This document shows positions 6,701 through 61,045 of a stretch of 64,000 nucleotides of DNA, one piece after another (the stretch's first letter is position 1; each line of letters begins with the position of its first letter). The position numbers and the translations under genes are program-made. Source of the stretch: Rugalucina vietnamica (lineage: Eukaryota > Mollusca > Bivalvia > Lucinida > Lucinidae); NCBI GenBank assembly GCA_964017185.1, contig OZ024875.1, positions 32,249,456-32,313,455 of the forward strand. The letters run 5' to 3'. Below the pieces are notes generated by a model that did not search any database, was not told the origin of the DNA, and saw only the letters and a list, made by a program, of their open reading frames with translations.

Positions 6701-9700
6701 TTGCTCAAAATATGTGGGTAAATATTTACTAGCCTTATAACACAAATAGTCGATTTTTGTTGCTTGCATGTATACATAAGAAGGTACATTTATCAGACAT
6801 GTAGAGTATTCACCTTGAATTTCATGTGGACAGTATGTATGATGACAATGTAGGATATACATTGTATGCATTACAGGCAACGTTCAAAAGTTATAGATAA
6901 GATAGAACTTGTATTTTATCAAAATGTGACCATTAGCAGCATTGTTTTACGCTGCAAATATTATTTTACCATGTATTTCGATCAATACTGTAGATCCGGA
7001 AATATTTGCGAGAACTTAATTTTCGCTAATATTCGCGAATAGGTTGCCTCGCGAATTCAAAGTTCTCGCTAATAAAGAGTCACTATAAACTCTATATAAT
7101 ACATGGACACTCACTCGCGAATTCAAGAACTCGCTAATAATTCGCAAATAGAAATTTCGCGAAATAAAAGTCACGCGAAAATTTCCGAATTTACAGTACT
7201 TGAGAAAATCTGGGTTTTTGGTATCAATTTTTTTTGTCAAAAAAAAATTACCCCTGCCCCCAAAAAACTAACGTTATGGCGAGTATATGTAAAATTTTCA
7301 AATCAAACTTGTTTTGCTGTGTGCACAGGATGTCAGGCTTCCACAAAAACACACAATAATTATTACAGGCAATATTTATGCGTGCTTCTCAATGCAGGTT
7401 TTCAAAATCTAGGCAAACTGAATATGGGTTTTGACGTGACCCTTTAATAGTCAAATTGTGTATTGACAAACATATTGATTTATCAAATAACAGCGAGGTC
7501 ATGTACAGGCAACCAGCTATCATAACCAAACTGTTCCTGTGCAAGCTTCATGGGGGCAGATTACCTGTACTTTGTGTATATCTCTTCACCACTAACTGAC
7601 AAATGCTCTTCTTCAAACAACAGAAGAGGAAGAATGGACACAGAAATATTTTCATGGTCAAATCATCATGGAAGAAATGAACTAGGTATAAAATGATGAC
7701 AATACTAAATGGCTATAGCAGCAAGCTCCTGTTCAACCTACCTTGGACAAAACAAATCTATCACTAGCTGGGTCACGTGGATTTTCCGAGCTGTAGCGCA
7801 TTGTGTTGAAGAACAGGACCGACATGATCTCTGCAGCGGAACAACATGATGTTGGATGCCTGTAAATGCAAAGAGAACACCACTTCGGACACAATGAAAT
7901 CAATCTGCATTTTCATGCTGATTTCTTTGTGTTAAGGCTTAACGTCCTAGTCAACAATTATTCAGTCATGTCGTGACAAAGCCACTGCTTCCTGTGTACT
8001 AACTACTAACCAATACCATGGGCTGTTCAGGGGAGTTAATTTGTCTTGCTAGGAAAGCATGGGCTCATGAGTGCAGATGGAACCCAGGACCTGTCGATTG
8101 AGTCAGATGGTCTAACTCTATAAACACCTGGCCACCGCCCTCGCCCAATTTTCATCCCGGTTTTCTTGGGTTGGGTTTACCCAGGCGGATAATTTCATGC
8201 CAACCCTAAATACTCATAACTATCCAAATGTATATAGAATATTTTCTTTAGTATCAAAAGTATACACTCCACGTATGAAAATGGATATATTTACAAAAAT
8301 TTTCGTACGGATTTTTCTGTGAAACATTTATTAGAAAGCTGCAGTTTGCAAGCAACTTTGGCAAGGAATGTTCTTGTAATTTTTGCAAAGCTATTCAGAC
8401 AGGGTTCCCATTTACCGTCCTTTAGGGGTTTTTAACCACCAAAACCTTCTTATATAGGCCTATATATAAGGGCCGTGGCCAACTGTCCAAAAAATGTTCA
8501 CTGTTATCACGGCCTGATATGTACTTGCATGCCCCCCCCCCCCCCCCCCCCCCCCCCCCGGAAAATTATTGAAAAAATGGTGCAATTTGGTGGCATCTGG
8601 TGCATTTTCCGGGTGGTTTTTGCTCGGCTGAAATAGGCCATTTTATAAGGAGAATTATGATTATTTTTGCATTTATGCCTTGATAGGACGTAAAATAGTA
8701 CACCTGTAAAATGGGGCGCTCTATATCTGCAAAATTTTCGATAGACATCAAAATATTTTCACACCTATAGATGCACTAAATATTTGTAGTTCCTGCGAAA
8801 GCGTTCTCTTCAATGTATATTTTCTGTATCCTTTGCCATCATGATCAACTTACACATTAAAACAACACGAGATCCCGGAGTTTCACTGCAAAATTTCCCC
8901 GCAGATTCACATTTCTACAGTAATCTCCCAGCCTTCTCATTAGCAGGCGGCAGGAGGCTAAATTGCCTTCTATTATGAATGTTCAGCCTCCTACTTTTCA
9001 TATATTCACAGTGTATTTCTTTTAAATGAACCTACTTTTGCCTTCTACTTGAAGTTTTCAGCCTGTTAATTCAAAAGTTAGTGAAAAGGCTGAATCTCCC
9101 GACGATTCTCAGCTTTTCTCACGAACAGTGTCCACAGGTGGCCTGGGTGCTTGTGATAGGCTACGGTATTTTATTGTGGCACCCCACGGGCCTTCCATGT
9201 GCCTTTTTTTGTATTGGTTTTACCAGTGGTAGCGCCATTATATAGTTTGGTTTGGTTGTTGCTTACTGTCCCGATCAACAATTTTTCACTCATGTGGGCT
9301 TCTAACGAAACTGATTAAATGTATTTGGATCCAAGGCTGACAGACGTGATATTGCAATGAAATTCGTGCATGCTATGTCGCTATAATTATTCGAAGGTAC
9401 TACATGGACTTTTTCATGGTGGCAACGCTCGGTCACACATCCCTCACGTGTTTTCTGCGCTGTCAGACGGTATACAGGGTGATCTTTGTCAAGTAATATG
9501 TCTTCACAAACCTAATTCTAATGTGTTTTGGACGACTTAACATAAGATGAAAGAATAACCAGTTGGCCAGACGTCCCTCGCTGTTTCTTAGCTTTTAAGG
9601 CCAGTCAGTGGGAGTAGAATTTGTAGTTCAAGCAAATCTATCCAGTCATAGGGGCTAACTAGAGGATATCTATTTTCTATTTAAAGAAAAAGCAAACTAA

Positions 9701-11023: not shown

Positions 11024-11097
11024 TTTCGTTGGTGTCCACTTGCACGTTCCAACCGGTGAAATGTCAAATTGGGAATATCACGTGATTTTTTTAGTAC

Positions 11098-13937: not shown

Positions 13938-15050
13938 TTAATGATTAGCTATTTTTGAAGCAAATTTTTACCGGTTTTAATGCGATTTGAGCACAGCTAA
14001 TTATTAGCGATTTCGTCTACAAAATATAATGATTAGCGATTTTTGGTAGAAAATTTTACCGACTGATTAGCGACTTGACACATTTTAACGGTTAGCGATT
14101 TCCGGTGAAACTGAAGTAAAATGGGCGCATTTCTTCTCGTGAGCTGACCGTAATTGTGTCTGTGTTTCTAGACGTCGAATTTAAATGCGACAAATAAGTT
14201 AGGGAACGGTGCTATTACATTTGCGCTCATTTTCCAAATATTTCGTTTGCGCTCATTATTCATTTTCGTGCTGAAAAGTATATCAATTGTGCTAAGTTTA
14301 AGTGGACGAAGGTATATTTGCGTGCATTCCTTGGCCATAGCTTCATAGCCGTTTTCGGCGTTATTTGCAAAACATTCAAGACTTTTGCTGTCCATAGAAA
14401 TCTATGCAAACTGAAGATGCTGCATGATTATGTGATTCGGTGATAAAACATGATGTAAGATCCAAACTGAAAGTCGTTCATTCATTGGGAATGACCAGAT
14501 TCAACATTTTATGCATGTTTCGCTTTCCAAAATTGAGCTTTACGGAGTGCAGAAGCAAAAAGACAAACTCGTTTTCAGTAAAAGTGGGGTTTTTCACTCA
14601 TGGAATATTGTATCATCCGTAGCACAAAGAAAAAAATGCTGCGAACTTAAATAATTTGGCATACATATGCATGTAGCTAGGCCAAGATATGACATACATG
14701 TGATAAACAATTCAGTATCACCAGAAATAGAAAATTGGATTTTTTTTCCAACTTTTCCAAAGACCTTAAAGTGTTCCCTTACTTTTAACCATGTGTATAT
14801 AATAGATATTTTCATTCATGCTATTTTACAGAGAGCAGTAGCTTCCTTTTCCTCTTCTGAAATCCCTTTAATTATATTGATAAAGAAAAAAATAATAACC
14901 TGTATGCCAGTAAAAATAATTCAACATCATCACATTAAAGCTATTTTACTGATTTGGCAAAGCGATTTGTTGGCCAAAATTTTACTGCTTAGCGATTTTT
15001 GGACAAAAATTTTACTGATTAGCGATTTCAGAGGTACCCCCATTGAGACC
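13938..15050. mobile_element. TTAGCGATTT word-array element inside LINE debris
   Basis: Both ends consist of irregular copies of 'tgattagcgattt' and 'ttttactga' (13938-14110 and 14935-15045). The 800 bp between has no recognised gene. Its position within retroelement sequence suggests an insertion, but I could not define a target duplication. Confidence 0.5.
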
Positions 15051-28736: not shown

Positions 28737-28738
<2 letters not shown>

Positions 28739-42890: not shown

Positions 42891-43127
42891 TATTTAAAAA
42901 AAAAAATTCCAAAAACTGGTTTAAGTAATACTTATTCTCAAATTTCATTACGTAGCATTGAAAAAAGGTCCACTCCTCGCAACCATACACACGCACACAT
43001 CTGGGGCTTTTCTGTTTGCTGAAAGAAAATGTCATTGAAAAATTAAATAAAACATAAAAATCAAAACCGATTCCCCTCAAAATGACAGTGGACTTACCCA
43101 AATGATAACGATGGGAAAGTCCATTCA

Positions 43128-44192
43128 CCATAAACTGGTTAATGGATTTCGCTTAATATAAGTAGCCCTTCTGTTTTGAGTAAATAAGCGTTAATAAACT
43201 ATCATCCTTGACCGACATCAATGTACATAATAAAGCCAATTTGAAGTATGAAAGTTTCCAAATATGCGTGAAGATTTGCATTGATTAGTTGCTATCCATC
43301 AACTTATAATACCCATAATTGACTTTATAGATACCCATAAATCAAACTGATTTAATGATATGAATAAGTCAAATTATGGATATTCATAAATCGTATTATG
43401 GATGTCCATAAGTCAAATTTTGGATTTCCAAAATTCAGGCTGATTGTTGGATATCCAAAATTCGATTTATGGATATCCTAAATTTCCGTAATTCAGCTTG
43501 ATTAAGTGATTTTGAATTATGGATATCCTAAAATGATGAATAAATAATAAAACGGCACCCTATAGAAACTGAATTTTTTAACTCGAAACTCGAAAATTTT
43601 AACTCGAAACTCGAAAATTTTAACTCGAAACTCGAAAATAGTAACTCGAAACTCGAAAATTTTGACTCGAAACTCGAAAATTTTAACTCGAAACTCGAAA
43701 ATGTTGACTCGAAACTCGAAATTTGTAACTCGAAACTCGAAAATAGTAACTCGAAACTCGAAAATTTTGACTCGAAACTCGAAAATTTTAACTCGAAACT
43801 CGAAAATTTTGACTCGAAACTCGAAAATTGTAACTCGAAACTCGAAAATTTTGACTCGAAACTCGAAAATTTTAACTTGAAAAATAGAAAAATGGCAATA
43901 GATGATCTCTTGCAGAGGAGTTTGATGATCTCTTAGCTAACCAATCTAAGAAATACTATTTATTTCGGATGACTTTCGCGGAAAACAATCATCGTGGGTT
44001 TATTGATTGAATTACATCCGGTTTTTTGATGTTGGTACGTGACAGATATCATGTTTCTGACATGATTTGAATTCGACCTTGGGGACATAAAACTGATGTA
44101 ATATTTATGCAAATCGCATGTAACCTTGAAATTTTTATGTGTGTCATTGATGTGCTGACGCAATGTTTAAAAACGCCCTTTTCAGCTGAGCC
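43128..44192. repeat. 1-kb duplicated block, copy 1
   Basis: Collinear with 50608-51560. Shared order: 'cttaatataagtagccctt', a region made of 'ggatatcc' and 'ataattc' words (43290-43540), an AACTCGAAACTCGAAAATTTT array, then 'atagatgatctcttgcagag' to 'tgtgctgacgcaatgtt'. Copy 1 ends where the GAGCTCACC-family element begins. Confidence 0.9.
43570..43886. repeat. Tandem AACTCGAAACTCGAAAATTTT array (reverse of 42605 array)
   Basis: About 15 units of 21 bp, the reverse complement of the word forming the array at 42605-42890. The two arrays face each other across 680 bp. The 21-bp period leaves an open frame of repeated TRNSKIL units that I regard as accidental. Confidence 0.95.
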
Positions 44193-45225
44193 GAAGTTAC
44201 AGTATACACATGCTCCGGCGTCCGTCTCAAACACATCAGGCAAACATGTCCATGCAATTTATGCCCCCTTAAACCCCACTTTTATTATAATGCAAAACTG
44301 GCGTATGCATGGGTACATCAGGAAAACAAGTCCGTGTAAAGTATACCCCCTCAAACCTCACTTTTACATAGTAAAACTGGGGTATGCAGGGGTATACCTA
44401 TTTTTCTTATTTTTGCTCCAAAACATAGATTGTGGGTACTCATTAGAACCGCCTCGCCGAGGCGGTTCTAACGTGTACCCACAATCTACGTTTTGAGCAA
44501 AAATATCAAGATTTTTCTGAAGAAATTTTCATTTTTTACAACTGAAAAAAATCTCTGTGTATTGCATGGGCAAAGTTTCGTAATGTACCTATTTTTCTTA
44601 TTTTTGCTCCAAAGCATAGATTGCGGGTACTCGTTACAACCGACTCAGCGAGGCGGTTCTATAGTGTATCCACATTCTATGTTTTGAGCAAAATTAGAAA
44701 AATATGAAATTTATTCAGCTGAAAATTTTCAATTTTTAAAGCCTATTGCATGAACACGTTTTCGTAATGATCTTCTTCTCTAAAACCGCTTGGCCAATCA
44801 AAGCCAAACTTTATTTGAAGCATCGTTAGGAAGGAGGAATGAAAGTTTGCATAAATGGTCAAGGTCGCATGGCCAAGATGACCCATCATGGCTATAAATA
44901 GCAAATTCCTTTAAAAATATTCTAAGGCCTATGATTTTGAAACTTGCCTTGAAGCATCAGTGAATTGAGCTCTACAATTTTTTTTTATGAATTATGACCC
45001 TGTGGTGACCTTGACCTTTCACGGCAAGGTCAACTTAGGATGCCTATGCATTTGAATGGGTAAAAGTGGGAAAATGTCATTTAATGGCAGGAAACTTGCT
45101 TGAAATGAGCAAATGGACAGAAGATTTATGCTTATGTAAAAAATATCCCACGGTGGTTGTCTGCCAATTTTATTGGTATATATCCCAGATCTTAGGTGAG
45201 CGTTTTTAGGACAATTGGTCCTCTG
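44184..45225. mobile_element. GAGCTCACC-family element, reverse copy, interrupted
   Basis: Starts 'cagctgagccgaagttacag', is broken at about 44240-44768 by a family B MITE, resumes at 'cttctctaaaaccgcttgg' and ends near 'cttaggtgagcg...ttggtcctctgg'. It matches 61597-62130, which lacks the MITE. Confidence 0.82.
44240..44768. mobile_element. MITE family B, partly duplicated copy
   Basis: Contains two tandem partial units. The central inverted repeat 'accgcctcgccgaggcggt' is flanked by 'agattgtgggtac' and its complement at 44425-44490, and a second diverged set lies at 44610-44680. Confidence 0.8.
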
Positions 45226-45324
45226 GTTGGTATAATCCTTGCATTGTTTGTTGTCACCTCCCCATGACCGATTGAAACCCGTTTTAACTTTTTTTAGTTA
45301 ACGGAACCAATCTGACATTTGCCA

Positions 45325-45430
45325 CGACATCAGAATCAGAATATAGTATATTGGTGAAACGTCAACCTGACAATACCACACCAGGGGGATGGGGCTTGAG
45401 CGGAGGGGATTAGTCCCGAGCTTTCAGGGT
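45325..45430 (-). pseudogene. LINE 3' tail
   Basis: Only the last roughly 100 bp of the element type at 12885-13937 (tail 'agaatcagaat', 'ccacaccagggggatgggg'). It is joined to the GAGCTCACC element by the same spacer as at 62130-62225. Confidence 0.7.
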
Positions 45431-46264
45431 ATCAGTTTAGTTTACCCCGCCATTTTGTCCACCAGACCTGTTATCGATTACTTTCAAAGTTAATCACTAA
45501 CGATTACAATTAATTTCAATCTTACGATTAACGATTACGATTAAAAATATTTTTTCCTGAATTTAATCGATTACAATAACAATTGATTTGCAAATGTAAT
45601 CGAATAATCAATCGATTAGTTTTGCATTTATAATCTAGCCAGTCTTGAATTAAGCAGTTATGATTTAACTGTATATGGTATTATATTGGCATATAAGAAT
45701 CATCTAGGTGTATTGGGCACTTTATCTTAAGATTGATTGATCAAAATTACTGCAACACTCTAATCAATTGGCATTTTTTTTTTATCTAATTTGGAGTTGT
45801 TACCCAAATTATAAACACACACACACACACAGCATCGTGAGATCTAAAATTATGCTTTGACATCACTGAATTTGGTAATATCACTCTCTGTCATGGCCTC
45901 TCTACAGATAGGGGGAGATCGATTCCCTTAATCATTTGTTTATTGTCACCAACTTGTTCCAGGGTGTTTTGACAACACAACCCATATGACACCTGTTTAT
46001 TAGTTAATCTGTAAAGGTGTGACCAGGTAAGAATAGGTTTGAACTTTTGCAATAGGTTTCAAAGCCTATTTAGAATGAGGTCAATTCTATGTTTATAATC
46101 ATGGTCACTGAGGTCAAAGAAGAAGTGTTTGAAGATTTTTCTTTTCAGTTCAGAAAAATCATAACACGTTACAGACGTATAGGTTATAACTTGAATGTTA
46201 TGCGACAGTCTGCATGCTTAGTTTTTAACCCAATCATGGTTGATAACTATGTTGCCTTCTTTAA

Positions 46265-46925
46265 TTGCACGCCGGTGGGTCGGGCGTCAGACTCTATGAT
46301 GGCCCCGACTTAAGCTATTCATTTTAGTTGGTTGGGGCCGGAGCTTCTTGTCTGTTGCTTGGCCCACCGGGGTCCAACTGGTGTTTTTCTTTTGCTCCGG
46401 AGTTAGTAGGTTATTCGGCGCCCAGGGATCTCCATCGTTGGGCAGCTTACTCAATCTGTGAGTCCTTGTTTTTGATTCATCAGGATGTTTGTCATAATTT
46501 ATTTGTTTGTTCTTGATGATTCATTGACTAGTTAGAGATTCACCACGAGGACCGAATAACTTATTAAATGTTATGAACCACTGCAGAAGCTGAGGGTGAG
46601 GTTAGGATCCTGTAAAACCGGTTTAAGCCCGCCAGTAACTTTGTGTTACTGATCGTTCCAAGGCGATACTTCTGTGGTGGTTCTTTTTGTTTTATGTCTT
46701 GGTGTTTCAAATTTTTGTGCTGTTGGCGCCTTATGTATGTTTTCAATTAAGTTAAGGTAACTGAGTGGCCACCTATTGGGAAAATAGCTGCTCATTTGGC
46801 TTACGATATGTTTCATGGTATAAGTGCCTGATTGTTAGTTTGGTTTTTTTCCCACCTCGGTTTTTGGAGTGGGAATCTCTTTCTGATTGCGCCTTTTCCT
46901 GATCTTTGCCTACTTGTACCTCTTT
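46265..46925. repeat. GGTACAAGTAGGC-family repeat, longest copy, reverse orientation
   Basis: Ends 'gcctacttgtacc' at 46919. At the other end it extends further than the other copies and contains a CCGGTGGG / CCCACCGG inverted pair (46271-46370). Confidence 0.8.
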
Positions 46926-47104
46926 GTAAGAAGGGTCCTGAAATGATTTGAAAAATGTCAGAGAGAATTTCGATAAAAATAAGAGCTGTCGCAGGACAGC
47001 GTGCTCGACTGCTTCTGACCTTTGTCAAACATAAGGTCAAACCCGACCAGTAACCCAAAGCATTATGCTCATACATCTTTTTGCCTTGATGCAATAAGGC
47101 AAAA

Positions 47105-48100
47105 ATCACTGAACTATGAAAGTTAACTATAACTACCTAAGATTTAGAGGTCTCACTCATATTGTTCATATACCAACTGAGTGCCAAGACACAATGCAAA
47201 ATCACTGAACCGAGAAATAAGGTCACACTGACCTATAAGGTCTAGTGATACTTACTCATAATGTGAAAGAAATATGATCATATACCCATTCAGTGTTGAG
47301 ATATAAAGCAAAATCACTGAACCATGAAATTAGGTCATAGTGACCTATAAGTATGTTTGGGTTAAAGGTCTGGTCATACTCATTCATAATTAGAAAAAAG
47401 TATGAAAAAATACCAACTGAGTGTCGAGAAATAAGGCAAAATCACTGAACCATGAAATTAGGTCACATTGACCCAAGAATACTTTACGGTCAAAGGTCTT
47501 GTCATACTCATACATATCGTGCAAGAAGTATGTCCATATAGCAATTGAGTGCCGAGATATAAAGGAAAATCACTGAACTGTGAAATTAGGTCACAGTGAC
47601 CTAGGGTCAAAGGTCTTGTCATACGCAAACATAGTGTGAAAGAAGTATGTTCATAAACCACTTGAGTGCTGAGATATAAGGCAAAGTCACTGAACCGTGA
47701 AATTAGGTCACAGTGACCTATAAGTATATTGGGGTCAAAGGTCTGGTCATACTCACTCATAATCTGAATAAAGTATGAAAATATACTAATTGAGTGTCAA
47801 GATATAAGGCAAAATCACTGAACCGTGAAATTAGGTCACAGTGACCTAGGACTACTTCAGGGTCAAAGGTCTTGTCATACGCAAACATACTTTGAAAGAA
47901 GTTTGTTCATAAACCATTTGAGTACCGAGATATAAGGCAAAATCACTGAACCGTGAAATTAGGTCACAGTGACCTATAAGTATATTGGGGTCAAAGGTCT
48001 GGTCATACTTACTCATAATCTGAAAGAAGTAAGAAAATATACTAATTGAGTGTCAAGATATAAGGCAAAATCAGTGAACCATGGAAAGTAGTTCAAACGA
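47105..48100. repeat. Tandem array of about 128-bp units with nuclear-receptor-like sites
   Basis: Units contain 'aaaatcactgaaccgtgaaa', a GGTCA-N3-TGACC palindrome and a 'gggtcaaaggtc' direct repeat. Perfect palindromes begin at 47221, 47333, 47461, 47589, 47706, 47834 and 47962 (spacings 112, 128, 128, 117, 128, 128). GGTCA-N3-TGACC equals the vertebrate estrogen response element consensus. 'GGTCA-A-AGGTC' resembles a DR1 element. Binding is not shown. Confidence 0.92.
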
Positions 48101-48189
48101 CCCTTACCGTCATGACACACAAGTCAGTGTCACAAAGTCAAAAGATGAATGACCAACCATCTTCCTAAGTTGTTTCTATTAAGAAATAA

Positions 48190-49065
48190 AAAGAAAAAAA
48201 ATCGGGGAGTTCTAGATTTTGACCTCTAGCCACGCCCCCCTCACTCCGACCCAGAGGTCCGATGTCATGGAACCTAAAGTGTATGAAGGATGAATGCTTT
48301 ATGATAAGTTGTTGTCAAGATATGGACTCCTTGTAAAAGTTACACAGCAGTACATCTATTTTTACAGTGTTCTAGTTTTTTAACCTCCAGCCCCACCCCC
48401 AGGCATGGACCCAGAGATCCGATGCCATGAAATGAAACTCAACCCTACAGGGTACCTATGGTCCGAGTATGAAAGCCCTCTGATAAAAAGTTTTCAAGAT
48501 ATAGACTTCTAGAATACTATATCACAGAAAAGCCATTATTATTAATGGTGTTCTAGATTTTAACCTCTAGCCCCACCCCCTGGCATGGACCCAGGGATCT
48601 GATGCCATGGAATGAAAGCCGACCCTACAGGGTGTCAATGGCCCAAGTATCAATGCTTTCTGATGAGTGGTTGTCAAGATATGGACTTCTAGAAAACTTT
48701 AACACAAGAATTGCCATTTTTGAAGGTGCTCTAGATTTTAACCTCCAGCCCCATCCCCTGGCCTGGACCCAGGGGCCAGATGCCACGGAATGAAAGCTAA
48801 CCCTACAGGGTATCTATGGTCCAAGTATGAATGCTTTCTGATGAGTGGTTGTCAAGATATGGACTTCTAGAAAACTTTAACACAAGAATTGCCATTTTTG
48901 AAGGTGCTCTAGATTTTAACCTCCAGCCCCACCCCCTGGCCTGGACCCAGGGGCCATATGCCATGGAATGAAAGCTAACCCTACAGGGTATCTATGGTCC
49001 AAGTATGAATGCTTTCTGATGAGTGGTTGTCAAGATATGGACTTCTAGAAAACTTTAAGTGTGAC
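48190..49065. repeat. Tandem array of about 180-bp units
   Basis: About five units sharing 'gttgtcaagatatggacttc', 'attttaacctccagcccca' and 'ggacccaggggcc'. Homogeneity rises toward the right end, where the last two units are nearly identical. A short run of 'cgggaacgggaacg' follows (49067-49097). Confidence 0.9.
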
Positions 49066-49799
49066 GCGCACGGGAACGGGAACGCACACGGGAACGGGAA
49101 CGTGGACGACCGGGGTGACTGCAATAGCTCTATGCACTTCGTGCAGTCGAGCTAAAAACCCAAAGAGGACAAGAAAATATATAATAATGTTAAATTGTTG
49201 ACCAGTATGCATGAATAACTTTATTATGTGCCCATGTCATTGAAACCATAATCTGTTCCATATAACTGACGAATTTATTACATCAATAAAGAAAATGCTT
49301 TTTTGACATTTAGAGTTAGAAGCCAAAAATAATGACAAAAAATAATGACAAATGTACACAGTCTGATCTGTTACTGTATCAGAATTCCCATTTGATATAT
49401 CAACAATTCTTGAAAGTCAAGTAATTCCTGTTGTGAACATAATATTAGATATAAATTTATTTTGCTTTTTTCTTTTACTCTTTTTTTTTTCAGAAAAAGA
49501 ATTTTCAGCACATCTTGAAATATAATCAGAATTTATTCATAAAATCAATCACGATTACAGGCATTTTTGAAAAGTATTCGAATAAGATTAATTTCAATCG
49601 TAAAATCTACGATTACAGAATAATGTTTGATTGAAAAAAAATTCAATCGTAAAAGTAAAAAAAGTAATAAAAGTAATCATGATTAATGATTAAGATTAAC
49701 CCAGGTCTGTTGTCCACCCTGTCATTGTTGTTACGGACATTGTCAATGACGCTACGGTTTCCTTCAAAAGTGTTAATATACACACGAACTGTATTGTCT

Positions 49800-50545
49800 T
49801 AAGAGATGATAACCCTCTTGGGTGTGATTTTGAATATGAGAGTTACCTAAGGATGGCATGTATTGGATTAGTGAGCTGTAATCATTTGTCTACACTGCTG
49901 ATAAATAAAAAGTGTGTAAAAAGACTAAAATTTGATCAAAATTTTCATTTTTATTTAGTTTTAGCAGCCATCTTGGATTCCATATTTTATATTTCACAAT
50001 GATATAAATCTCATTTTATATGTGTGCAACGTTTACACAATATGATACAAATATGACATAACTGGACTATATTGGGTCAGAAAACACAAGAATTTGCACT
50101 ACAGGCGTTTAGTACTGTGTGGTTGAAATAGATGGCAGCCATCTTGAACTAATTTTATTGCCAAAGGGTGACAAGGTGATGTCAGTTGTGTTCATTTGTT
50201 GCATATTCATCCTCTACACCACTTATAATGTTCAAAAACATGAAAAAGAATGAAAGTTGGTTGAAAATTCAACTTTTTTTAAATTTAGGCGGTCATCTTG
50301 GATGCCATTTTTGTTTTACACTCACAAAAGACCATTGAGAGTATGACTCTTTCACAAAATGATACATCTGTAACAATTATTGATAAAATATGCGCAGAAA
50401 AGTTTGGATTTTGCACTATACAGGTATTGTACTTTGAAGTTTTAACAGATGATAACCCTATTGGACGCCATCTTGAATTATGAGAGTTGCCCAAGGCTGA
50501 CAAAGTGGCATCAAGTGGATTCTTGTTTCTGAAGGTGTTGGCTGT
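49800..50545. repeat. Three-unit degenerate tandem repeat
   Basis: Units of about 200-240 bp share 'gccatcttggat'-like and 'gatgataaccct' phrases. The GCCATCTTG motif resembles a YY1 core but recurs here only because of the repeat. Confidence 0.65.
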
Positions 50546-50607
50546 CCTAATCAGTCAAAACATTTTCTATACACCGCAAATCCAGGTCCACCCCCGAATC
50601 AGCCAGA

Positions 50608-51560
50608 CTATAATGGATTTTGCTTAATATAAGTAGCCCTTCTGTTTTCGTTAAAAAATCGTTAATCCTTGACCGACATCAATACATAATAAAGCCAATT
50701 TGAAGTATGAAAGTTTCCAACGATGCGTGAAGATTTGCATTGATTAGTTGCTATCCATAATTCAATTTATATCCATAACTGTATATATAGATACTCATTA
50801 ATCAAGCTGATTTAATGATATGAATAAGTCAAATTATGGATAATTCATAAATCGTATTCTGGATGTCCATAAGTCCAAAATTGAGGCTGATTGTTGGATA
50901 TCCAAAAATGGATTTATGGATATCCATAAATTTCCTTAATTCAGCTTGATTAAGTGATATTGAATTATGGATATCCTAAATTGGTGAATAAATAGTAAAA
51001 CGGGCCCATAGAATCTGACTTTTTAACTCGAAACTCGAAAATTTTAACTCGAAAATTGTAACTCGAAAATTTTGACTCGAAAATTTTGACTCGAAAATTT
51101 TAACTCGAAAATTGTAACTCGAAACTCGAAAATTTTAACTCGAAACTAGAAAATTTTGACTCGAAACTCGAAAATTTTAACTCGAAACTAGAAAATTTTG
51201 ACTCGAAACTCGAAAATTGTAATTAGAAACTCGAAAATTTTAACTCGAAAAATAGAAAAATGGCGATAGATGATCTCTTGCAGAGGAGTTAGATGATCTC
51301 CATGCTAACCAATCGAAGAAATACTCTTTGATTCGAATGACATGTACTTTCGGTTGACAATCATCGAAGATTGGGTTTATTGATTGACTAACATCCGGTT
51401 TTTTGATGTTGGTACGTGACATATATCATGTTTCTGACATGATTTGAATTCGACCTTGGGGACATAAAACTGATGTAATATTTATGCAAATCACATGCAA
51501 CCTTGATATTTTTATGTGTGTCATTGATGTGCTGACGCAATGTTAAAAAACGCGCTTTTT
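50608..51560. repeat. 1-kb duplicated block, copy 2
   Basis: Same order as 43128-44192 in the same orientation, 7.4 kb away. Its AACTCGAAA array (51020-51250) is shorter and less regular. The forward array found before copy 1 is absent here. Confidence 0.9.
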
Positions 51561-51980
51561 ACAATCAATTTCTGTGCACCACGACGATTCATATTGCGTC
51601 AATCCAAAATATTTTGAACCAAGGTCAGTGAGCGTGTTTTCCGAAAATGATACACTTTTAAAAAGGAAAGGTCATTAGTACAGAGCTGTGTCATGAGAAG
51701 ACGTTGATTTTCCAATAATCGTTTTTGACTGGACAGTTTATCTCATTCAGTCACAATGTTCTATAATAAATCTACCCTATAACTGATCTGTATCTAATTG
51801 ATTGCCTCTAAGTTTATGATATTGATGTAAATCAAGAAAAAACATTGATAAATTCATTGATATAATTTCCTTTTCTCTGGACATGACCATTTACTGCACT
51901 TGTGTTCGGATGTTAAGAACAAACTTCAATCAGAAAGAATTTGTTTGATGTGTATTTTTGACTTCCGCATTAGTACAATT
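51561..51980. other. Intergenic, nothing recognised
   Basis: No gene or repeat could be supported. Confidence 0.35.
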
Positions 51981-52170
51981 TGAGCCGCGACGCGAGAAAA
52001 CCGGTCTTCGGGATTTCCGACCAGGTGCGACACAAATCGGTCTGTACAGTCACAGGAGCAGGTTAGATACTTGAAATTTTGGCTATGAGTAGAAGAGGAA
52101 TTATACTATCCGAGTAGCGAAAACAAAGGCGCTGATCAGCTTTGCGGTTACCGCGAAGCTGATCTGCGCC
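51981..52170. mobile_element. MITE family A, left part (interrupted by 9.3-kb element)
   Basis: Runs from 'tgagccgcgacgcgagaaaa' through the hairpin to 'gaagctgatctgcgcc', where the next element begins. The missing right part ('tttgttttcgcc ... gatgcggctca') is found at 61489-61535. Confidence 0.88.
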
Positions 52171-52289
52171 TGTTAGGCGACTAAGTCGGTAATGCGCTTA
52201 AGTAGGAAAAAGTTACGACTATCTAGGAAAACGTCCGTCAGGCGCTTAAGTGGGAAATGCCACGGGGACCCAACTGTTAATCGTGATTA

Positions 52290-52553
52290 TTGATGCGACG
52301 TGGAATGTTAATGCATGCTATTATGAAGTTTCGTATGCGTCGGCGAGTTCGTTACGAATGCGACGTTCCACATCCTCTGTCCTTGGACGGTAAGTACCAC
52401 ATGTTTTGCTCTTGTGAAAATAAACAAAGCCGAGTTTACAAAATCGGCGTCCACTATGATCTGCAAAAATCTTCTATGTTCCCACCTGGAGTCAATTGGA
52501 ATACTTACGGCACTTGTGTTTTTCAGGTAATGGTTTATAAGGTTGACAGGTAG
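52290..52553 (+). CDS. Unknown 87-residue ORF, left arm
   Basis: I do not recognise this protein. It begins MMRRGMLMHAIMKFRMRRR, a strongly basic start, then YECDVPHPLSLDG and MFCSCENK, and ends QVMVYKVDR. It is almost identical to the ORF in the opposite arm, with six substitutions that I can count over 87 residues and no stop in either. A GTAAGT donor-like site after DVPHPLSLDG (at about 52389) and an AG before the last residues (tttttcag at 52520-52527) could make part of it intronic. It could be one exon of a lost transposase or not translated at all. Confidence 0.4.
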   Translation: MMRRGMLMHAIMKFRMRRRVRYECDVPHPLSLDGKYHMFCSCENKQSRVYKIGVHYDLQKSSMFPPGVNWNTYGTCVFQVMVYKVDR

Positions 52554-53720
52554 ATACAAGATTGCCACGAAAACTCATTACATTCTAAAAGTCATTTTGT
52601 TTTTCTAATTCTTGACCGTAAACTAAGAAGTATAACACAGTCTTGTGGTGTCTTTATTGAAATATGTATCCAAATGGCTTTGTAAATGCACACTTATTTA
52701 CTGAGCGTGAAAAACAGTAAGATAAGCATCTCTTGTATGCATCGTAGATTTTGTTAAAATTTAATATGCGACACAAAAATGCATCGTGGAAGATTGAGAC
52801 CCATGAATCAGTAAAATAAAAAAGCAAATATGGAGACAGTGATGCATTTACTTCAATTAATAGTTTCTAGATACATGTTAAAGGGGTCAACCATGTTTTT
52901 ATACTGTATTAACATTTGCAGAGGCTGGAGAAAGTTGTTTTAGCCTGAGGCCGAGGGTTCAAAGGGCTCCCGAAAGACTCCCGAAAGACTCTTCTAACTG
53001 CAATAAAATAACCATAGTTGATCGCTGTTCTTGTACAACACATCATTCCCATGGAAAACTGACTGACAACCGCACCTAAACCCTCACAAATCCCTTTAAT
53101 TCTTTTGTTTTCTCTCTCTCTCCCCCCCCCCCCACCCCCGCTTATCAAAAATGCATGGAGCCACCGATATTAAATGATCAAATATTATCTGGTTAAGCCT
53201 TAGTGGTCATTTAATGTTAGAAAACATATTACATATGTCACTGATATGCCCGAAAATGATTTGCTGTTTCGAGGCAAGAAGTCACTCGAATGTTGACAAA
53301 GCTATATCAGAAAACCACTCTGTGACCTCATTCAAAATAAAAGTGGCACATGCTTTGAAGCTCGCTCAACAAAGTACATGTAACTTACAAGGAAACAATA
53401 CACCGTGCAATATTGCGCTTGATAAAAGCACAAATTATGCTTTTGCATTGACGTAAATAACTTTTGTAAGAGCACAACAAAATGCTAATTCTTCCATGAC
53501 TCATTCTAGTAGTACGTACCTTCATCTTCGATGCATACAAAAGATGCTTATCTTACTGTTTTTCACGCTTAGTAGATAAATGTGCATTTACAAAGCCATT
53601 TTGATACATATTTCAATAAAGACACCCATAGGACTGTGTTATACTTCTTAGTTTACGACCAAGAATTAGAAAAACAAAAGGACTTAAAGAATGTAATGTG
53701 TATTCGTGGCAATCTTGCAT

Positions 53721-53984
53721 CTACCTGTCAACTTTATAAACCATTAGCTGAAAAACACAAGTGCCGTAAGTATTCCAATTGACTGCAAGTGGGAATATAG
53801 AAGAATTTTGAAGATCATAGTGGACGCCGATTTTGTAAACTCGGCTTTGTTTATTTTCACGAGAGCAAAACATGTGGTACTTACCGTCCAAGGACAGAGG
53901 ATGTGGAACGTCGCATTCGTAACGAACTCGCCGACGCATACGAAACTTCATAATGGCATGCATTAACATTCCACGTCTCATCAA
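53721..53984 (-). CDS. Unknown 87-residue ORF, right arm
   Basis: The inverted-arm partner of the ORF at 52290-52553, with the same length, start and end. Visible differences are CSRENK for CSCENK, QNSSI for QKSSM, PLAV for PPGV, and QLMV for QVMV. Function unknown. The frame is open in both arms although nucleotide differences have accumulated elsewhere in the arms. Confidence 0.4.
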   Translation of the reverse strand: MMRRGMLMHAIMKFRMRRRVRYECDVPHPLSLDGKYHMFCSRENKQSRVYKIGVHYDLQNSSIFPLAVNWNTYGTCVFQLMVYKVDR

Positions 53985-54194
53985 TAATCACGATTAACAG
54001 TTGGGTCCCCGTGAATGCGACTAAGTGGGAAATGCGACTAAGTGGGAAAAACGACTAACCAACTTGAAAAAGTTAATACGAGTCGGACTTGTAATTTCAA
54101 CTTGTTACATGTAAATCCATTTTAATATAGGATATCAATTCGCCGTGTCTTGAGAAAACCTGTCTTAAAGATTTTTCGACCATATCCAACACAA

Positions 54195-54835
54195 ACCTGA
54201 GTGTACAGCTAGTATCTCACGGGCATGCGAATTTCTCGCGACTGTTTTACGAATTCAGTCACACGAGTGTCGTGAGAATTTTCATGTGTCGCGAACTAGT
54301 CGCGAGGTGAACGCGAAGAAGTCGCGAGGGTTTTAAACATGTTTAAAACTTTTATGCGAATGTTTTCGCCAAAATATGACGCAAGACTGTCACGCAATTC
54401 TCTGGCGACAGTCGTACGACGTTCATGCGAGTGTCGCGAACATGTCGCCGCGAAATTTTGGAGAATTTACAATGCGAAAATTTCGCAACACTCGTACGAC
54501 TGTCGTACGAATGTCGTAAGACAGTCGCGCGACAGTCTTCAGAATACATGCGAACATCTTGCGACTATCTGGCGAGAAATTAAAACTAGGCGACATGAAT
54601 GTCGCGAGACACGCTCACGAATGTCTCGCGACTGTCGTACGAATGAAAATGAAACTATAGCTACATTCGTGGGAATTCGAACGACACTCTCACGAAGTTT
54701 CGCGACTGTCATACGACAGTCGCGCGACTATCGTGCGACAGTCGCGAGATATATTTCCAAAATTAGACCGAAATTCTCGAATTTGTCGCATACATGTAAG
54801 TGCCCATTCAATGAGACTGCAACGTGACAGTTGTA
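54195..54835. mobile_element. TCGCGA/GTCGTACGAC word element
   Basis: About 640 bp composed largely of near-palindromic words: TCGCGA, GTCGTACGA, GACAGTCGCGCGAC. The 162-codon ORF over it (rich in Arg, Ser, Thr and Cys) is a by-product of the words. Ends show only weak inverted similarity. Confidence 0.6.
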
Positions 54836-54969
54836 TCTATAATATATCGTTGTTATTTGTCGCGAAATAGTCTCGAACATAGAGGCTTTACGAACAGGGC
54901 CAGAGGCTCTTCTTTATGACCAACGAACTGTCTATGTAATAAAGGTTGTAACGTCGCTAAGCTGCGCGC

Positions 54970-55860
54970 AGCACTTGTGATATAGGAGAGGAATCTGTAG
55001 GACAGGGTCCAGTACTTGTGATATAGGGGGTGTACCGGTAGGGCAAGGACCAGTAATTGTGATTTTTGGGCGGTAACAGTAGGACAGGGTCCAGTAATAT
55101 GGGAGAGGTCTTGTCTGTAGGACAGGTACTTGTGATATAGGGGATATACGAGTAGGACAGTGTCTAGTTATTGTGATATAGGGGATGTACCGGAAGGTAA
55201 TGGTACGGTATGAGGGATATAGTGGCCTTAGCGGTAGGACAATGACCAATACTTGTGATACAGGGGAGGTATCTGTAGGACATGGACCAGTACTTGTGAT
55301 ATAGGGGATGTACCGGTAAAAACATGGTCCAGAACTTGTGATATAGGGTAAGTAACGGTGTGACAGGGGCCAGTACTTGTGATATAGGGGATATACCGGT
55401 AGGACAGGGACCAGTACTTGTGATACTGGGGAGGTAACTGTAGGACGGGGTCCAGTACTTGTTATCTAAGGACGGTAACTGTAGGACAGGGTCCAGTACT
55501 TGTGATATAGTGGAAGTAACTGTTGGACAGGGACCAGTACTTGTGATATAGGGGAGGTAATTGTAGGACAGGGACCAGTACTTTTGACCAGTACTTAGGA
55601 CAGGGAACAATACTTGTGATATAGGGTAGGTAATTGTAGGACAGGGACCAGTACTTGTGATATAGGGGGGTAACTGTACGACAGGGACCAATACTTGTGA
55701 TATAGGGGAGTAAATTGTAGGACAGGGACCAGTACTTGTGCTATAGTGGAGGAAACTGTTGGACAGGGACCAGTAGTTTTAACCAGTACTGTAGGACAGG
55801 AACCAGTACTTGTGATTTAGGGGAGGTAATTGTCGGTCAGGGTCCAGTACTTGTACTACA
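54970..55860. repeat. Minisatellite, about 42-bp units
   Basis: Roughly 20 units built on 'gtaggacagggtccagtact' and 'tgtgatataggggaggtaa', with small indels. It gives long spurious minus-strand ORFs with a Pro/Tyr-rich 14-residue period. Confidence 0.95.
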
Positions 55861-56183
55861 CCTTCATTACTTTCTCCCGCAAAAAAAAAAAACTTGAACT
55901 GCATAAACGCAAAACAACAGTAGAAAAAGAAAGGAAAAAACGCCATCTTGTATCTTTGAATGGGCCGAGAATAGAAAGAGAAAGTCAAAATGGATGGTGG
56001 CGGGATTTATGTGACATTATACATGATAAGCAGTTCCGCTTTTCCGATTGTTTACATCAATAAAATATCAGTTTCAATAGTGCAGCAAAAATTGTAATTA
56101 AAACACCAATTATCTGCTAACCACTGGCTTATCGCCTGCGAATTGTGTGTAACCGACAAAAAACCTGTATTCGGGGGTTAATG

Positions 56184-58102
56184 CAGGCGTCATACCTAGC
56201 CCGATTTTCGTCACGAATTTGGTAAAAAGACTAATTTTGAGCCGAAGCATGTACGAAGCCTGCCATGGACACACAAATACAACACGATTATACCCGAAGC
56301 CCTCACGAAGCATATACGAAGTGGTAGTTTTGCATACGATGTTGATGTGATTGGTACACGAAGGCTTCACGACATCGTGAGCTGTAAAATGTATTCCCGA
56401 AAGTGTCCCGAAGGCATAATGTGACTTCACGATGTTGTGTAAAAACCAAATGTTGAGACTACAGTGATACTTTGTCAGTTTCTTTCTTTTAAAATTAAAA
56501 TTGGAAATGCCAACGCAACCAGGAAGAGGGCGTTGGAGCGGAAGATTGCGCTCCACTCCAAAATTTCCCTCCAAGGTTCAACTCCGGGCCAAGAATCCAC
56601 TACTCTACTGGAAAGAAACCCGGGTGCTGCTTGAAAGAAAGAAAAATAATTATGAACAAATACCTTAAGAGATCTTGTTGCTCCTGCTTGATGTGTTTAT
56701 TACATGTATCATGTTCGAGTTGCGGGTAAAGAAGCACTGCTGAAGTCTTCTTCTTACTTATTGTCTTGTCCTCGAAATACGCCATGATTTTTGTCAGAAT
56801 AGAACCAACAGTACCCATCAAGATTTTCTGAGAAGTATGCTGTGTGGATACTGATTTTTGTATGTCCACGTTACCGTGGGAAATATTGTAAATGCAGAAA
56901 GAACAGTTTTGGTTATCGTATACCCATCGAGATGCCATCGTGTTCTAAATTTTTCAGAAACATATGGTGTAATCGAAGGGTCAAAATGGCCGAAGTGGTT
57001 AACCGATCGGTCCATGCCTATTTCGAAATAGGAATGCACCCGCAAATATAGGGGTGCACCCGCATATTTAGAGGTTCACCCCTATTTTTAGATACGGATT
57101 TTACCTGCATTTTAGGAGCAGGTAATACCTGCAATATAGAGATGCATGCCTATTTTAAGAGGTGCATGCCTATTTTTGAGGTGACCCCCCCCCCCAAAAA
57201 AAAAAAAAGCAGGTGCATGCCTATTTTAGGGGTGCATGCCTATTTTAGGGGTAAACCTCTATTTTATAGGTTAACCCCTAAAAATACGGGTTAACCCCTA
57301 AAATAGGCATGCAGGGGTTAACCTCTGTTTTGAAAATACAGGTTCACCCCTATTTTTAGGGGTCCATGTCTAAATAGAGGTGAACCCTTAAATAGGGGCG
57401 AACCCGTAAAAATGGGGGTTAACCCTTATTTTCAAATTGCGGGTGCACCCCTATATTTAGGGGTTGACCTGCAAATACGCAGGTGCACCCCTAAATAGAG
57501 GTTGACCCCTAAATAGCGGTGCACGCCTATTTTAGGGGTGCACCCGTATCTTTTTAGGTGCACCCGTAAAATAGAGGTTAACCGCTAAAGTAGACATGCA
57601 ACCCTAAAATAGGCATGCACCTGTATTTTAGGGGTTCACCTCTATCTTAAAATAGGGGTGAACCTCTAAATATGCGGGTGCATGTCTATTTCGAAATAGG
57701 CATGAACCGATCGGTCAAGGTATACTAACTGCAGATCTACAAGTCGTCCTCCGCCTCCGAGTCGAATAACATTCTCTCCAGCTTTGTCAGTAGAGTACAC
57801 GACCGACAAAATAAATGAAGTGAACGGAACGAAAGCCCGATTGTCGGACTAAAGGTATACATGCGAATTCTACACGAAATTGAACCTTCGTGTGTCCCTC
57901 GGACATTTTTGGCATGTCAAAGATTTTGGTGTCGCTAGCGATGGTGCTGCCGAAGGCTTTAAAAATCTCCCGACGGACATACGATGGGTAAAGATGCACT
58001 CACGAACAGTCCGATGTCTTCACGATCCGTGCCGAATTGGAAAATTTCCATAATCGTGTGTCCATCGTGTGTCAAAATCGGCTAGGTGTGGCGCCTACAC
58101 AA
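56184..58102. mobile_element. ACGAAG word element with inverted ends
   Basis: Inverted ends: 'catacctagcccgatttt' at the left and the complement of 'aaaatcggctaggtgtgg' at the right. The flanking 300 bp on each side are full of CGAAG, TTCACGA and TCGTG words. A second foldback element (57000-57718) is nested within it. Confidence 0.65.
57000..57718. mobile_element. GGGGTGCATGCCTATTTTA word element
   Basis: Inverted ends: 'accgatcggtccatgcctat' at the left and the complement of 'ataggcatgaaccgatcggt' at the right. The whole body is a shuffled series of 'aggggtgcatgcctatttt' and 'gggttaaccccta' type words in both orientations. Confidence 0.85.
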
Positions 58103-58212
58103 AGGGCTTTACGAAGTTTTGACGATTGTTATACCACACGAGCGAAATGCACAACCTACACAGTTACCACGCTACTCTAGCAGCAAACACATTTAATGCT
58201 GCACGAGCTGAA

Positions 58213-58515
58213 CTTGGCCCCCGCCCATTGGGGCCTTAAGAAATAGATGGGCTGCTTGTGCCTCCAGACAAAGATTGTTCGCTGCTGACTGACCATCTGA
58301 TTACTGGTTAACCGCTCAGGTCTGAGCTTGCCCAGGAAGAGTGGTTTCAAGTCAAACCGTTCACACATATAAGCCTTTGTGGCTTTGTTGGATGGTTATA
58401 TTTTAAGCACTTGTTGGATGTCATGACATCCTCATTTTGGGTAAAAGTCCCAGAAAGTGGAGGCAACGTCCCGATATGACCTTATCCGTTGACTGGGACG
58501 TAAAGCATCAATTCA
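58213..58515 (+). repeat. SINE-like dispersed repeat C, uninterrupted copy
   Basis: From 'cccattggggcctt' through 'actggttaaccgctcaggtc', 'cacttgttggatgtcatgac' and 'gactgggacgtaaagcatca', ending in a short (CAAA)n run. Confidence 0.75.
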
Positions 58516-58537
58516 AACAAACAAACAAGACTTTTTA

Positions 58538-58803
58538 TCATGAAAACGTCCGTGTAAAGCGTACCCCCTATACCCCACTTTGATATAGCAAAACTTGGGT
58601 ATCCAGGGGTATACCTATTTTTCTTATTTTTACTCCAAAACATAGGTTGTGGGTACTCGTTAGAACCGCCTCGCTGAGGTGGTTCTAACGTGTACCCACA
58701 GTATATGTTTTGAGCAAAAAATAGAAAAAAAAAATCAAAAAATTTCCGACAAAACTTTCTTCAATTTTTACAGCTGAATAAATCTCTGTACATTGCATGG
58801 GCA

Positions 58804-58836
<33 letters not shown>

Positions 58837-59100
58837 TTTTGTTTTTGTTTTGTATTTTTAATTCAGTTTTACGTCCCTTTCAAGATTATTTCAGCTCATG
58901 TGAGACGGGCCAATCAGTAGGTGGGCGAAAACGGGAGGACCCCGAGAAAAACCACCTGGCACACCCGCAAGCTGAACTTGGCTTGTCTCACATGTGGCCA
59001 GAGCGGGCAGACACAGCGGTGAGATGATCGAGTGACTAAGAAACAGCGCTCTTAACCGCTCGGCCACGGGGGTCGCGGGCAAGTTTTCGTATTGTATCTA
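58538..59100. mobile_element. MITE family B interrupted by a SINE
   Basis: Left end 'atcatgaaaacgtccgtgta', central inverted repeat 'aaccgcctcgctgaggtggtt', then 'cattgcatgggcaag', the SINE, and the right end 'gggcaagttttcgta'. Confidence 0.85.
58806..59076 (-). mobile_element. tRNA-derived SINE, minus strand
   Basis: Minus sense: tRNA-like head 'cgtggccgagcggttaagag', body with 'aggtggtttttctcggggtc', and an A-rich tail (T-run at 58806-58850 on plus). The flanking GGGCAAG plus T's (58799-58805 and 59077-59083) is the target duplication. The B box is weak. Confidence 0.85.
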
Positions 59101-59243
59101 TTTCTTTATAATACGCATGATTTTATTACATATAAACCATTTTTTACCACGGACCAGGACGGACAATAATAATGATATTAATTCTTCTGTTACATCCCCC
59201 CGCCCCCAACAAATTAATGCTAAGTATCTATTTAGGCATTTAA

Positions 59244-60186
59244 GGATGTTCGCTGCCAATGAAAAAGTATTCAAACTTTTTTTCTAACCACTCTTTTTTG
59301 ATTCCAAAATACAACATAAGACATTTGAAAGCAAAATAAATATAGGGTAGTGTGCATTTTTTTCAAGCTACAGGCCTCTGAATGAGACCTCTGAGCATCA
59401 TGTTTTAAATTTAGTAAAATTAATTTAATTTTTAATTCTTTGAAACAAACCTGTCTTGAACAAAAATACACCTAGAATGCTTTCAAAAGTCATAATATTT
59501 ACGTAACGCAAACTATTTTGGACCAAACGCATAGAAAAATTTGCAACTTGAAGTGGATGACAAAATTGTACGAGTACTTTCCAACCCTACCCCCATACTT
59601 GAAAAGTCGGAAAAAATCAATATTTTGAAATGTGCCAAACCCATATTTGTTTATTCAAACTTTTTCTTGTATTTTCACACAACATAGAACTTTGTTATAT
59701 TGTTCGAATAAAAGAAAGAAATATATAGGGTAGTGTGCATATAAGAGAGAACCAACAACTTGAAAATCACCATTTTCAGCCTTTTTCAGCTGTTTTGTTT
59801 CTTTAAGCCCATTTCATAAAACCACCTAAAATTTTAAAACCAGCACACCAAAGACACAAAGACTGACTTAGAAGACCATGTACACTTATACTGCAGCTAA
59901 AATAAACAAAGAAATAGTGCAATTAATTTGAAAATGTGTAATATTCAAGTTTAATCTACCCTACCCCCTAAATTTCACTGACACTTAAATTTTTCTGAAA
60001 AGTTGCAGAAAATGGGGTGAAAAAATGAAGTTTCTTAGATTGACAATTTTCATGGCTCGTTCAATGCATATCATCATTATGTATCCAAATATGAAATATT
60101 GGGAAAATATCTGCAACCGTTTACGAGATATTCAACAAAAGAAAAACCGGAAGTGCCGAAATGTCAAATGTTAGCAGCGAACATCC
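59244..60186. mobile_element. 0.94-kb TIR element with TTAA target duplication
   Basis: Ends GGATGTTCGCTGCCAAT and the complement of TTAGCAGCGAACATCC, flanked by TTAA at 59240-59243 and 60187-60190. TTAA duplications are typical of piggyBac and Kolobok. There is no transposase and the interior is AT-rich. Confidence 0.82.
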
Positions 60187-60483
60187 TTAATGGTAATAAA
60201 CTGTTAAACATGTACTCGTATCTAGTTTTGGTATAATCTAAAACTTCGACGAAACAATTGCATCATTTAACTATATGCAACCAAGAACGGAACCATTAAG
60301 AGACCAAATCGGGAAATATCATTATAGAGGCAGATTGAGTATAGATTTTCATCGAACTTTAAACTAAGCAAAACAGGCATAGAAGATCAGCAAGATTGTG
60401 TAGTTATGTCAGAAATTGAAAACATACAAACATTTTACAATAATCACCCATTACATGACTGAAAGGGGGCAACACATACATGT

Positions 60484-61045
60484 ATGGCACTGTGTATTTT
60501 ATGGAGTGGAGTCATGGATTGGAGTCTTGGATTGGAGCAATGGAGTGGAGTACTGAAGTGGATTCTTAGAGTGGAACCGTGAAGTGAAATATTTGAGCGT
60601 AAGAGAAACATTTATTCTGGTGGTAATATTGGTCTCATTTGAACGGACGCCATAGCGAAATATGTAACACATGCATTACCCGTATAAGTAATGGAAATAA
60701 ATGGTTAATTTCTGGTACTTAGCCATTACTGGTACAGTTTATGCATCTCTTACACATTTTGTGATGGCGGACGTTGGCTCCGAGACAATTTCACCACCAG
60801 AAGTGAGTTTTCTGTAACACTCAAAATTTCATTCCAAGGTTCCACTCCAATAATCCACTCCAATACTCCACTCCATGACTCCAATCCAAGACTACAATCC
60901 ATGACTCCACTCCATAAAATACACAGTGCAAACACGTTTGCTGCATTCCAAGGTTCCACTCCAATAATCCACTCCAATACTCCACTCCATGACTCCAATC
61001 CAAGACTCCAATCCATGACTCCACTCAATAAAATACACAGTGCCA
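60484..61045. mobile_element. GGAGTGGAGT word element with inverted ends
   Basis: Inverted ends: 'ggcactgtgtattttatgga' at the left and the complement of 'aataaaatacacagtgccaa' at the right. Both arms consist of 'ggattggagt' and 'ggagtggagt' words. The right arm is tandemly duplicated (60834-60942 and 60943-61045). Confidence 0.85.

Follow-up and report, generated by a model that had tools for sequence, protein, structure and literature searches.

The window analyzed here is a stretch of 64,000 nucleotides from the lucinid bivalve Rugalucina vietnamica (contig OZ024875.1; C7:32249456-32313455), and copies of its features were searched for in the genome of 1.09 Gb (47 contigs). A preliminary description of this DNA had reported at least nine places occupied by foldback-like elements, each built from permutations of its own short word, and had proposed them as an unnamed class. 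The ten word places, named E1 to E10 in the order of that description, are collected in Table 1 together with an insert in E3 and a larger element, #2, in which E4 and E5 lie. The word regions are probably, for the most part, non-autonomous DNA transposons of the cut-and-paste kind belonging to several superfamilies, represented by their ends or by their whole bodies, and their words would be subterminal binding sites.

Table 1. Word-bearing features, numbered from the first nucleotide of the window.
Feature	Position	Strand	Description	Target duplication or remark
E1	6988..7196		209-bp miniature inverted-repeat transposable element, CTGTARATYCGGAAAT ends, body rich in CGCGAA	TA at 6986-6987 and 7197-7198
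E2	13938..15050	+	TTAGCGATTT direct repeats flanking about 830 bp on both sides; not inverted	
E3	28737..30575		ACGCGC/CGTACACC word region, 11-bp period in right part	broken by insert at 29076-29933
Insert in E3	29076..29933		overlapping palindromes A-B-A'-B', own word TTCATGGAGCTATGAACC	
Element #2	42593..51983		young dispersed element of about 9.4 kb, beginning at left with the GAGTTTCGAGTT array; E4 and E5 lie in it	right end less sure
E4	42605..43886		pair of inverted arrays of words, with units of 20 bp in the left arm and 21 bp in the right, spacers differing by arm	
E5	45463..49709		hAT-type insertion, CAGACCTG ends, CGATTA words near left end	8-bp duplication TTGTCCAC at 45455-45462 and 49710-49717
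E6	52171..61482		element of 9.3 kb ending in TGT..ACA, with GCGACTAAGTGGGAAA / GCGCTTAAGTAGGAAA words close to either end	6-bp duplication TGCGCC
E7	54207..54887		TCGCGA/TCGTACGA words over the whole body, in an 11-bp lattice	nested in E6
E8	56182..58099		ACGAAG words enclosed by imperfect inverted ends of 33 bp	E9 between its two sides
E9	56963..57718		whole-body palindromic array, units of about 19-20 bp	right outer end missing in window copy
E10	60486..61049		GGAGTGG word foldback, GGCACTGTGTATTTTATGG ends	single form ends at 60929; a tandem duplicate of the right end follows to 61049

Word richness was assessed by two measures, both independent of the words named beforehand. The count of the top 6-mer, compared with 300 dinucleotide shuffles at all places except E6, was in excess (P 0.003-0.007) in at least one segment each of E1, E3-right, E4, E5-left, E7, E8-left, E9, and E10, and the excess in E2 was weak (P 0.023 and 0.027). 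When 8-mer repetitiveness was scanned, 40 of 318 scanning windows exceeded the maximum of 530 shuffles; these covered E2-right, E3-right, E4, E7, E9, and E10, plus ordinary tandem repeats. Each element did have a word of its own, as described, but the words were not literal, AATCGATTAC and GGGGTGCATGCC occurring only once each and GCGACTAAGTGG and TTCGCGAA twice in their regions. A CpG was present in the originally named word at eight of the ten places.

Word spacing, for which a test of periodicity had been suggested, was periodic in several of the arrays. Clear periods were observed of 11 bp in E3-right (z 9.0) and E7 (z 10.2), 13 bp in E10 (z 6.9 and 10.9, the latter in E10-right), 19-20 bp in E9 (z 7.9 and 8.4), and 20 and 21 bp in the two arms of E4 (z 12.9 and 21.8), while the background control of 73 windows reached a maximum z of 4.1 at the five lags tested. 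A single helical pitch shared by all elements was ruled out, because neither 13 nor 19 is a multiple of 10.5.

With respect to orientation, the words had been characterized as near-palindromic or present in both orientations. Only in E9 were the words clearly palindromic (14 perfect 8-mers where 4.4 were expected, P 0.005), and the palindromy of E4-right (P 0.01) was due to the AAAATTTT spacer; the words of E4 and E10 reversed orientation between arms. The description failed for E2, in which all five exact words lay on the + strand and the halves were not complementary (inverted score z 0.3), so that E2 was rejected as a foldback. Inverted complementarity from half to half was strong in E3b, E3-right, E4, E9, and E10 (z 28-66) and moderate in E7 (z 6.0).

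Dispersal, fixed ends, target duplications of TA, 3, 6, 8, and 9 bp, and nesting of element within element were all demonstrated. For E1, all 39 other scored copies were 94-99% identical, with the left edge at most three bases from TA in 35 and the right edge at query positions 299-304 in 37. The TA target duplication places E1 by signature in the TA-target group (Tc1/mariner-type), TA by itself being no proof of superfamily.

Free copies of E7 measured 716-739 bp, with termini AGCCCC or AGCTAG followed by TATCTCACTGG, and were flanked by a 3-bp duplication, nearly always TTA/TAA, that was exact in 14 of 18 cases against 7.3 expected from mismatched flank pairs. A 3-bp TTA/TAA target duplication is characteristic of PIF/Harbinger, to which E7 would belong by this signature. 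The end pattern of E7 gave 963 exact matches, and none in the control; at least eight end pairs were present among the first 100 matches listed (727, 727, 726, 704, 693, 684, 598, and 1019 bp), too few for their lengths to be judged.

Other full copies of E9 were 827-944 bp long with TATGGTG..CACCATA ends. Of 20 flank pairs, 16 had an exact 6-bp duplication (0.00 expected from mismatched pairs), as had 15 of 19 independent sites, the pairs L007 and L072 being apparently the same site in opposite orientation. Seven of 28 loci, which lacked one end, were left out of the flank test, and the indel alignment also left out L008 (1876 bp, nested). E10 occurred as free copies of 444-459 bp with GGCACTGTG..CACAGTGCC termini; its 9-bp duplication was exact in seven of nine pairs (0.12 expected), had at most one mismatch in all nine, and was exact at six of seven independent sites, five of the 11 copies sharing one site. 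By the signature of an about 9-bp target duplication, E10 would belong to Mutator. For E6, the 6-bp duplication was exact in the window and at ten of the 13 other loci in which both ends were found (15 mate pairs, two of them without an end, and three not exact). A target preference was also seen, 18 of 24 right flanks, including that of the window (61483-61488), reading NACGTN.

An 8-bp target duplication and CA(G) termini are the signature of hAT transposons, and both were present in E5 (Table 1). CGATTA occurred nine times within its left 178 bp. The 83 bp to the left of E5 were common to all 39 other scored places at 98-100%, and E5 is therefore one ancestral insertion, carried by element #2; at 26 of these 39 places, E5 adjoined an E4 match. 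Left edges of element #2 fell at 42584-42617 in all 39 other scored copies. Of 39 main pieces, 12 had their right edge at 51983, the commonest position, and eight reached the query end; main pieces at the other scored places were 94-100% identical over the right part.

Both arms of E4 shared the word GAGTTTCGAGT, the typical spacer being AAAAAAGT/C in the left arm and AAAATTTTC in the right. A partial second copy (82%) at 50611-51559 carried the right-arm spacer; given this and the arm specificity of the spacers, each arm seems to have expanded separately. E4 had long inverted ends with internal tandem repeats, and dispersed copies with a target duplication were not shown for E4 itself. Between the two arrays, at 43281-43540, a second, unrelated word (GGATATCC) occurred in three exact copies.

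The nesting in E6 changed the count of elements. E7, E8, and E10 are modules inside E6 that recur in other E6 copies: of 25 E10 loci matching beyond the free form, 15 had a same-strand E7 match 2.9-9.6 kb away, with E8 pieces recurring beside them. E8 itself showed parts in other E6 copies and no target duplication was found for it, while E9 is a separate family that lies within E8 in the window copy. The tandem duplicate of the E10 right end in the window was 97% identical. With E7 and E10 recurring at the same loci, and E4 likewise with E5, ten independent elements, or the nine or more originally counted, had to be rejected.

E3 was located within a larger dispersed repeat that extended at least 600 bp beyond the right end first given for E3 in both copies read. 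The insert in E3 was missing from four of ten E3 copies examined; the two halves of E3 join there, revealing the insertion site. The boundaries originally assigned to E1, E5, and E6 were exact to the base at both ends, whereas those of E7, E9, and E10 were slightly off, and the repeats holding E3 and E4 continued past the assigned right ends. Six places, E1, E5, E6, E7, E9, and E10, proved to be mobile elements whose ends are precise and whose targets are duplicated, and E2, E3, and E4 were not supported as separate elements with terminal inverted repeats.

Copies were found to differ by whole word units duplicated side by side only in E7 and E10. Among free copies of E7 (n = 18, mean identity 0.972), four of the five distinct indels of at least 4 bp had the length of the word period, 11 bp, and the fifth was 10 bp long; the 11-bp segments matched the neighboring unit at 0.82-1.00. 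Two such indels, of 13 and 7 bp, were present in E10 (11 copies, identity 0.930), both exact duplicates of the next sequence. For free copies of E7 and for E10, the expansion by slippage that had been suggested is supported by these data.

Conversion, the second process suggested, was not supported. Identity between left and right arms was the same within and between copies (E10, 0.867 and 0.870; E9, 0.901 and 0.894; E7, 0.796 and 0.797), whereas the same arm compared between copies of these three families reached 0.937-0.986. The comparison took in 12 of 20 E9, 12 of 18 E7, and all 11 E10 copies, and in these copies ongoing arm-to-arm conversion was rejected on this ground.

The majority sequence of E7 contained 95 CpG per 727 bp, with a mean CpG observed/expected ratio (o/e) of 2.30 over 18 copies; the background value was 0.77 (standard deviation 0.34, maximum 1.81 among 156 windows). 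Distances between CpG pairs peaked at 11, 22, and 33 bp (56, 37, and 27 pairs), and variability per site was not higher at CpG bases (0.0129) than at the remaining bases (0.0158).

By reading of the sequences, the outer 8-35 or so bases were word-free and the words began directly inside them in E1, E5, E7, E9, and E10. Such a layout resembles that of known ends with subterminal binding sites. We infer, as the leading reading, that the words are transposase-binding sites, in line with what had been proposed for them. Under this interpretation, they would be putative subterminal sites bound by the transposase or its helper protein, and short derivatives would keep just the two word-bearing ends. 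Multiplication of the words by replication slippage or unequal exchange could then produce whole-body word elements. As additional sites may aid recognition, this form could be selected in unrelated families, in each of which the word would remain distinct, every transposase reading a site of its own. The same route has been proposed for the Foldback-like Galileo and Tetris. Since the target duplications differ in length (TA, 3, 6, 6, and 9 bp, and 8 bp in E5), apparently unrelated elements share the design.

Foldback elements, namely FB and the sea-urchin TU as well as Galileo (PMC3688188) and Tetris (PMC4079207), resemble the present ones in their long inverted ends of tandem repeats, the mostly missing intact transposase, and variable copies. 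Inverted ends with internal tandem repeats were found in E4, E9, and E10 and, to a moderate degree, in E7, and mobility with target duplication in E7, E9, and E10. By their architecture, E4, E9, and E10 can be classed as Foldback-type, and E7 less strictly so. The Tetris paper cites the view that the foldback structure evolves independently as the transposase is lost and the ends lengthen, and an independent origin in several lineages has already been proposed; the majority of foldbacks are said there to be apparently Mutator, Galileo being a P element (PMC4079207). The THAP domain of Galileo is described as binding repeats within the long terminal inverted repeats (TIRs), and long TIRs are listed as a trait of different superfamilies (PMC3688188). 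However, the repeat unit of Tetris, as given there, is about 220 bp against 11-21 bp in the present elements, and E7 and E9 depart from the Foldback elements in being word-filled nearly end to end with 3-bp TTA/TAA and 6-bp TA..TA signatures.

Other known groups were also considered. The Herves transposase binds CGATTCAT, which is repeated near both ends, a four-fold repeat being sufficient (PMC3143072). E5 resembles the hAT elements with subterminal repeats treated there (Ac, Tol2, Tag1, and Herves), which have a short family-specific word near both ends, in its 8-bp duplication, CAG ends, and CGATTA words, but it has no open reading frame (ORF) of at least 200 aa and its right end is not significantly word-rich. 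Mutator-like elements with tandem TIRs (PMC3310237) are comparable to E10 in the 9-bp duplication and the tandem right end, and slippage has been proposed for them as well; they are, however, plant elements, and no short-word body is described in the portion available. TA..TA termini with a 6-bp duplication link E9 to IS3EU and GingerRoot, and TG..CA termini with a 6-bp duplication, occasional in GingerRoot, link E6 to the latter; E6 does not fit IS3EU, which is always TA..TA (PMC10045372). The same source assigns a 6-bp duplication to Polinton also and a duplication of 1-4 bp to the wider group including PIF/Harbinger.

No transposase, such as the IS3-like DDE transposase of the IS3EU/GingerRoot group, was seen for E6 or E9 among the ORFs compared with Pfam: for 10 of the 32 ORFs of at least 70 aa in 51.9-61.7 kb, only matches below the curated cut-offs were obtained. 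We know of no word-array bodies in that group, a point at which no search was aimed. No ORF of at least 200 aa was present in 42-62 kb, the window copy of element #2 included. The proposed new class dissolves largely into known Foldback-type convergence, its apparent extent being partly inflated by nesting; Foldback elements with internally repetitive inverted ends were already known, as was the idea of binding sites within them (PMC3688188, PMC4079207). At the level of titles and abstract openings, with most subscription journals and Repbase outside this scope, no published whole-body word element with a duplication of 6 bp or 3 bp was found, and E9 and E7 as such elements, along with the 11-bp CpG lattice of E7, are possibly new.

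Certain results weigh against the binding-site interpretation. The superfamily names given above are read solely from duplication length and termini, and no transposase was matched to any word. Not all of the regions were word-rich, E3-left (P 0.29), E5-right (P 0.50), and E8-right (P 0.16) being non-significant against the 300 shuffles, and E2, E3, and E4 were without demonstrated ends of their own. Palindromy in E7 and E5-left (P about 0.03) was matched by two of three background stretches (P 0.035). E9 (20 copies, identity 0.950) had ten longer indels of mixed length (4-58 bp), and for E7 copies inside E6 (n = 22, identity 0.945) only seven of 22 events of at least 4 bp were 10-12 bp long, without a clear rule; as controls for the latter, the left flank was kept at one of 23 loci and failed, and the right flank was kept at 15 of 23 and gave broad indel lengths. 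The arms were not homogenized. High CpG was not a rule of the whole set either, because o/e was low in E9 (0.58) and E10 (0.43).

It could be argued that the words are passive, slippage of a motif in a non-autonomous element having filled it with hitch-hiking repeats that bind nothing. The unit-length indels beside near-identical units in E7 and E10 fit this explanation, as does the apparently separate expansion of the E4 arms. The arms of E4, however, keep the same word despite their different spacers, in five families the words begin directly behind the terminal bases, and the CpG-dense words of E7 persist above the background maximum, and we regard passive words as rather unlikely. A different account would be that the hairpin matters and not the words, whole-body inverted repeats being kept for cruciforms or double-stranded RNA. 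It draws on the strong complementarity of the halves in five of the regions, but the halves of E7 match only moderately, and the left and right arms of one copy were no more alike than those of different copies; pairing is therefore not maintained in the copies examined, and this account appears very improbable.

Ordinary satellites or minisatellites, inverted by chance, would fit E2, with its direct repeats only, and Tandem Repeats Finder did report arrays in E4, E9, and E10. As an explanation of the regions in general it is scarcely credible, since E6, E7, E9, and E10 were dispersed with fixed ends and many-copy target duplications and E1 had fixed ends at TA. Most of the places are not satellites; the satellite reading is refuted for these five and stands for E2. 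Going beyond the binding-site interpretation, one may speculate, as a rather unlikely reading, that the word lattice is a general end-design reached separately by unrelated transposases (the 3-, 6-, 8-, and 9-bp duplicators), and that the extreme 727-bp E7 element would be a cooperative, possibly methylation-sensitive binding platform growing word by word.

Should the words prove to be binding sites, several apparently unrelated families with a site number that varies among near-identical copies are available in a single genome, and the success of copies could be related to the number of sites. Such a relation would put to the test the proposal that the ends of foldbacks lengthen because mobilization benefits from additional sites. 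For annotation, it should be kept in mind that nested word elements inside large young transposons can mimic one class.

Two exact-pattern scans of viral_contigs and one of genome_contigs gave no matches, and nothing was found by the tRNA scan or, at gathering scores, by the Rfam scan. Within E6, an element with inverted ends of about 490 bp (94%), CACGGGG termini, and a 5-bp duplication AATGC was located at 52261-54013; it is presumably Transib-like by signature. A near-identical 88-aa frame was present in both of its arms, the left one without a Pfam match. E6 also contained an ordinary minisatellite at 54969-55854, a 41-bp tandem array of about 22 copies.

A dispersed repeat of about 194 bp (GAGAAAACCGGTC...) at 51978-52171, with many copies in the window and in the fetched loci, abutted both E6 and element #2. 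At 44402-44495, inside element #2, a hairpin unit of about 94 bp was observed (GAACCGCCTCG..CGAGGCGGTTC within ATTGTGGGTAC..GTACCCACAAT), with copies near 2047, 19622, 44593, 58619, and 62487 and 53 BLAST matches in the fetched loci. The window also contained a laccase-like open frame and, by reading of the translations, reverse-transcriptase-like frames.

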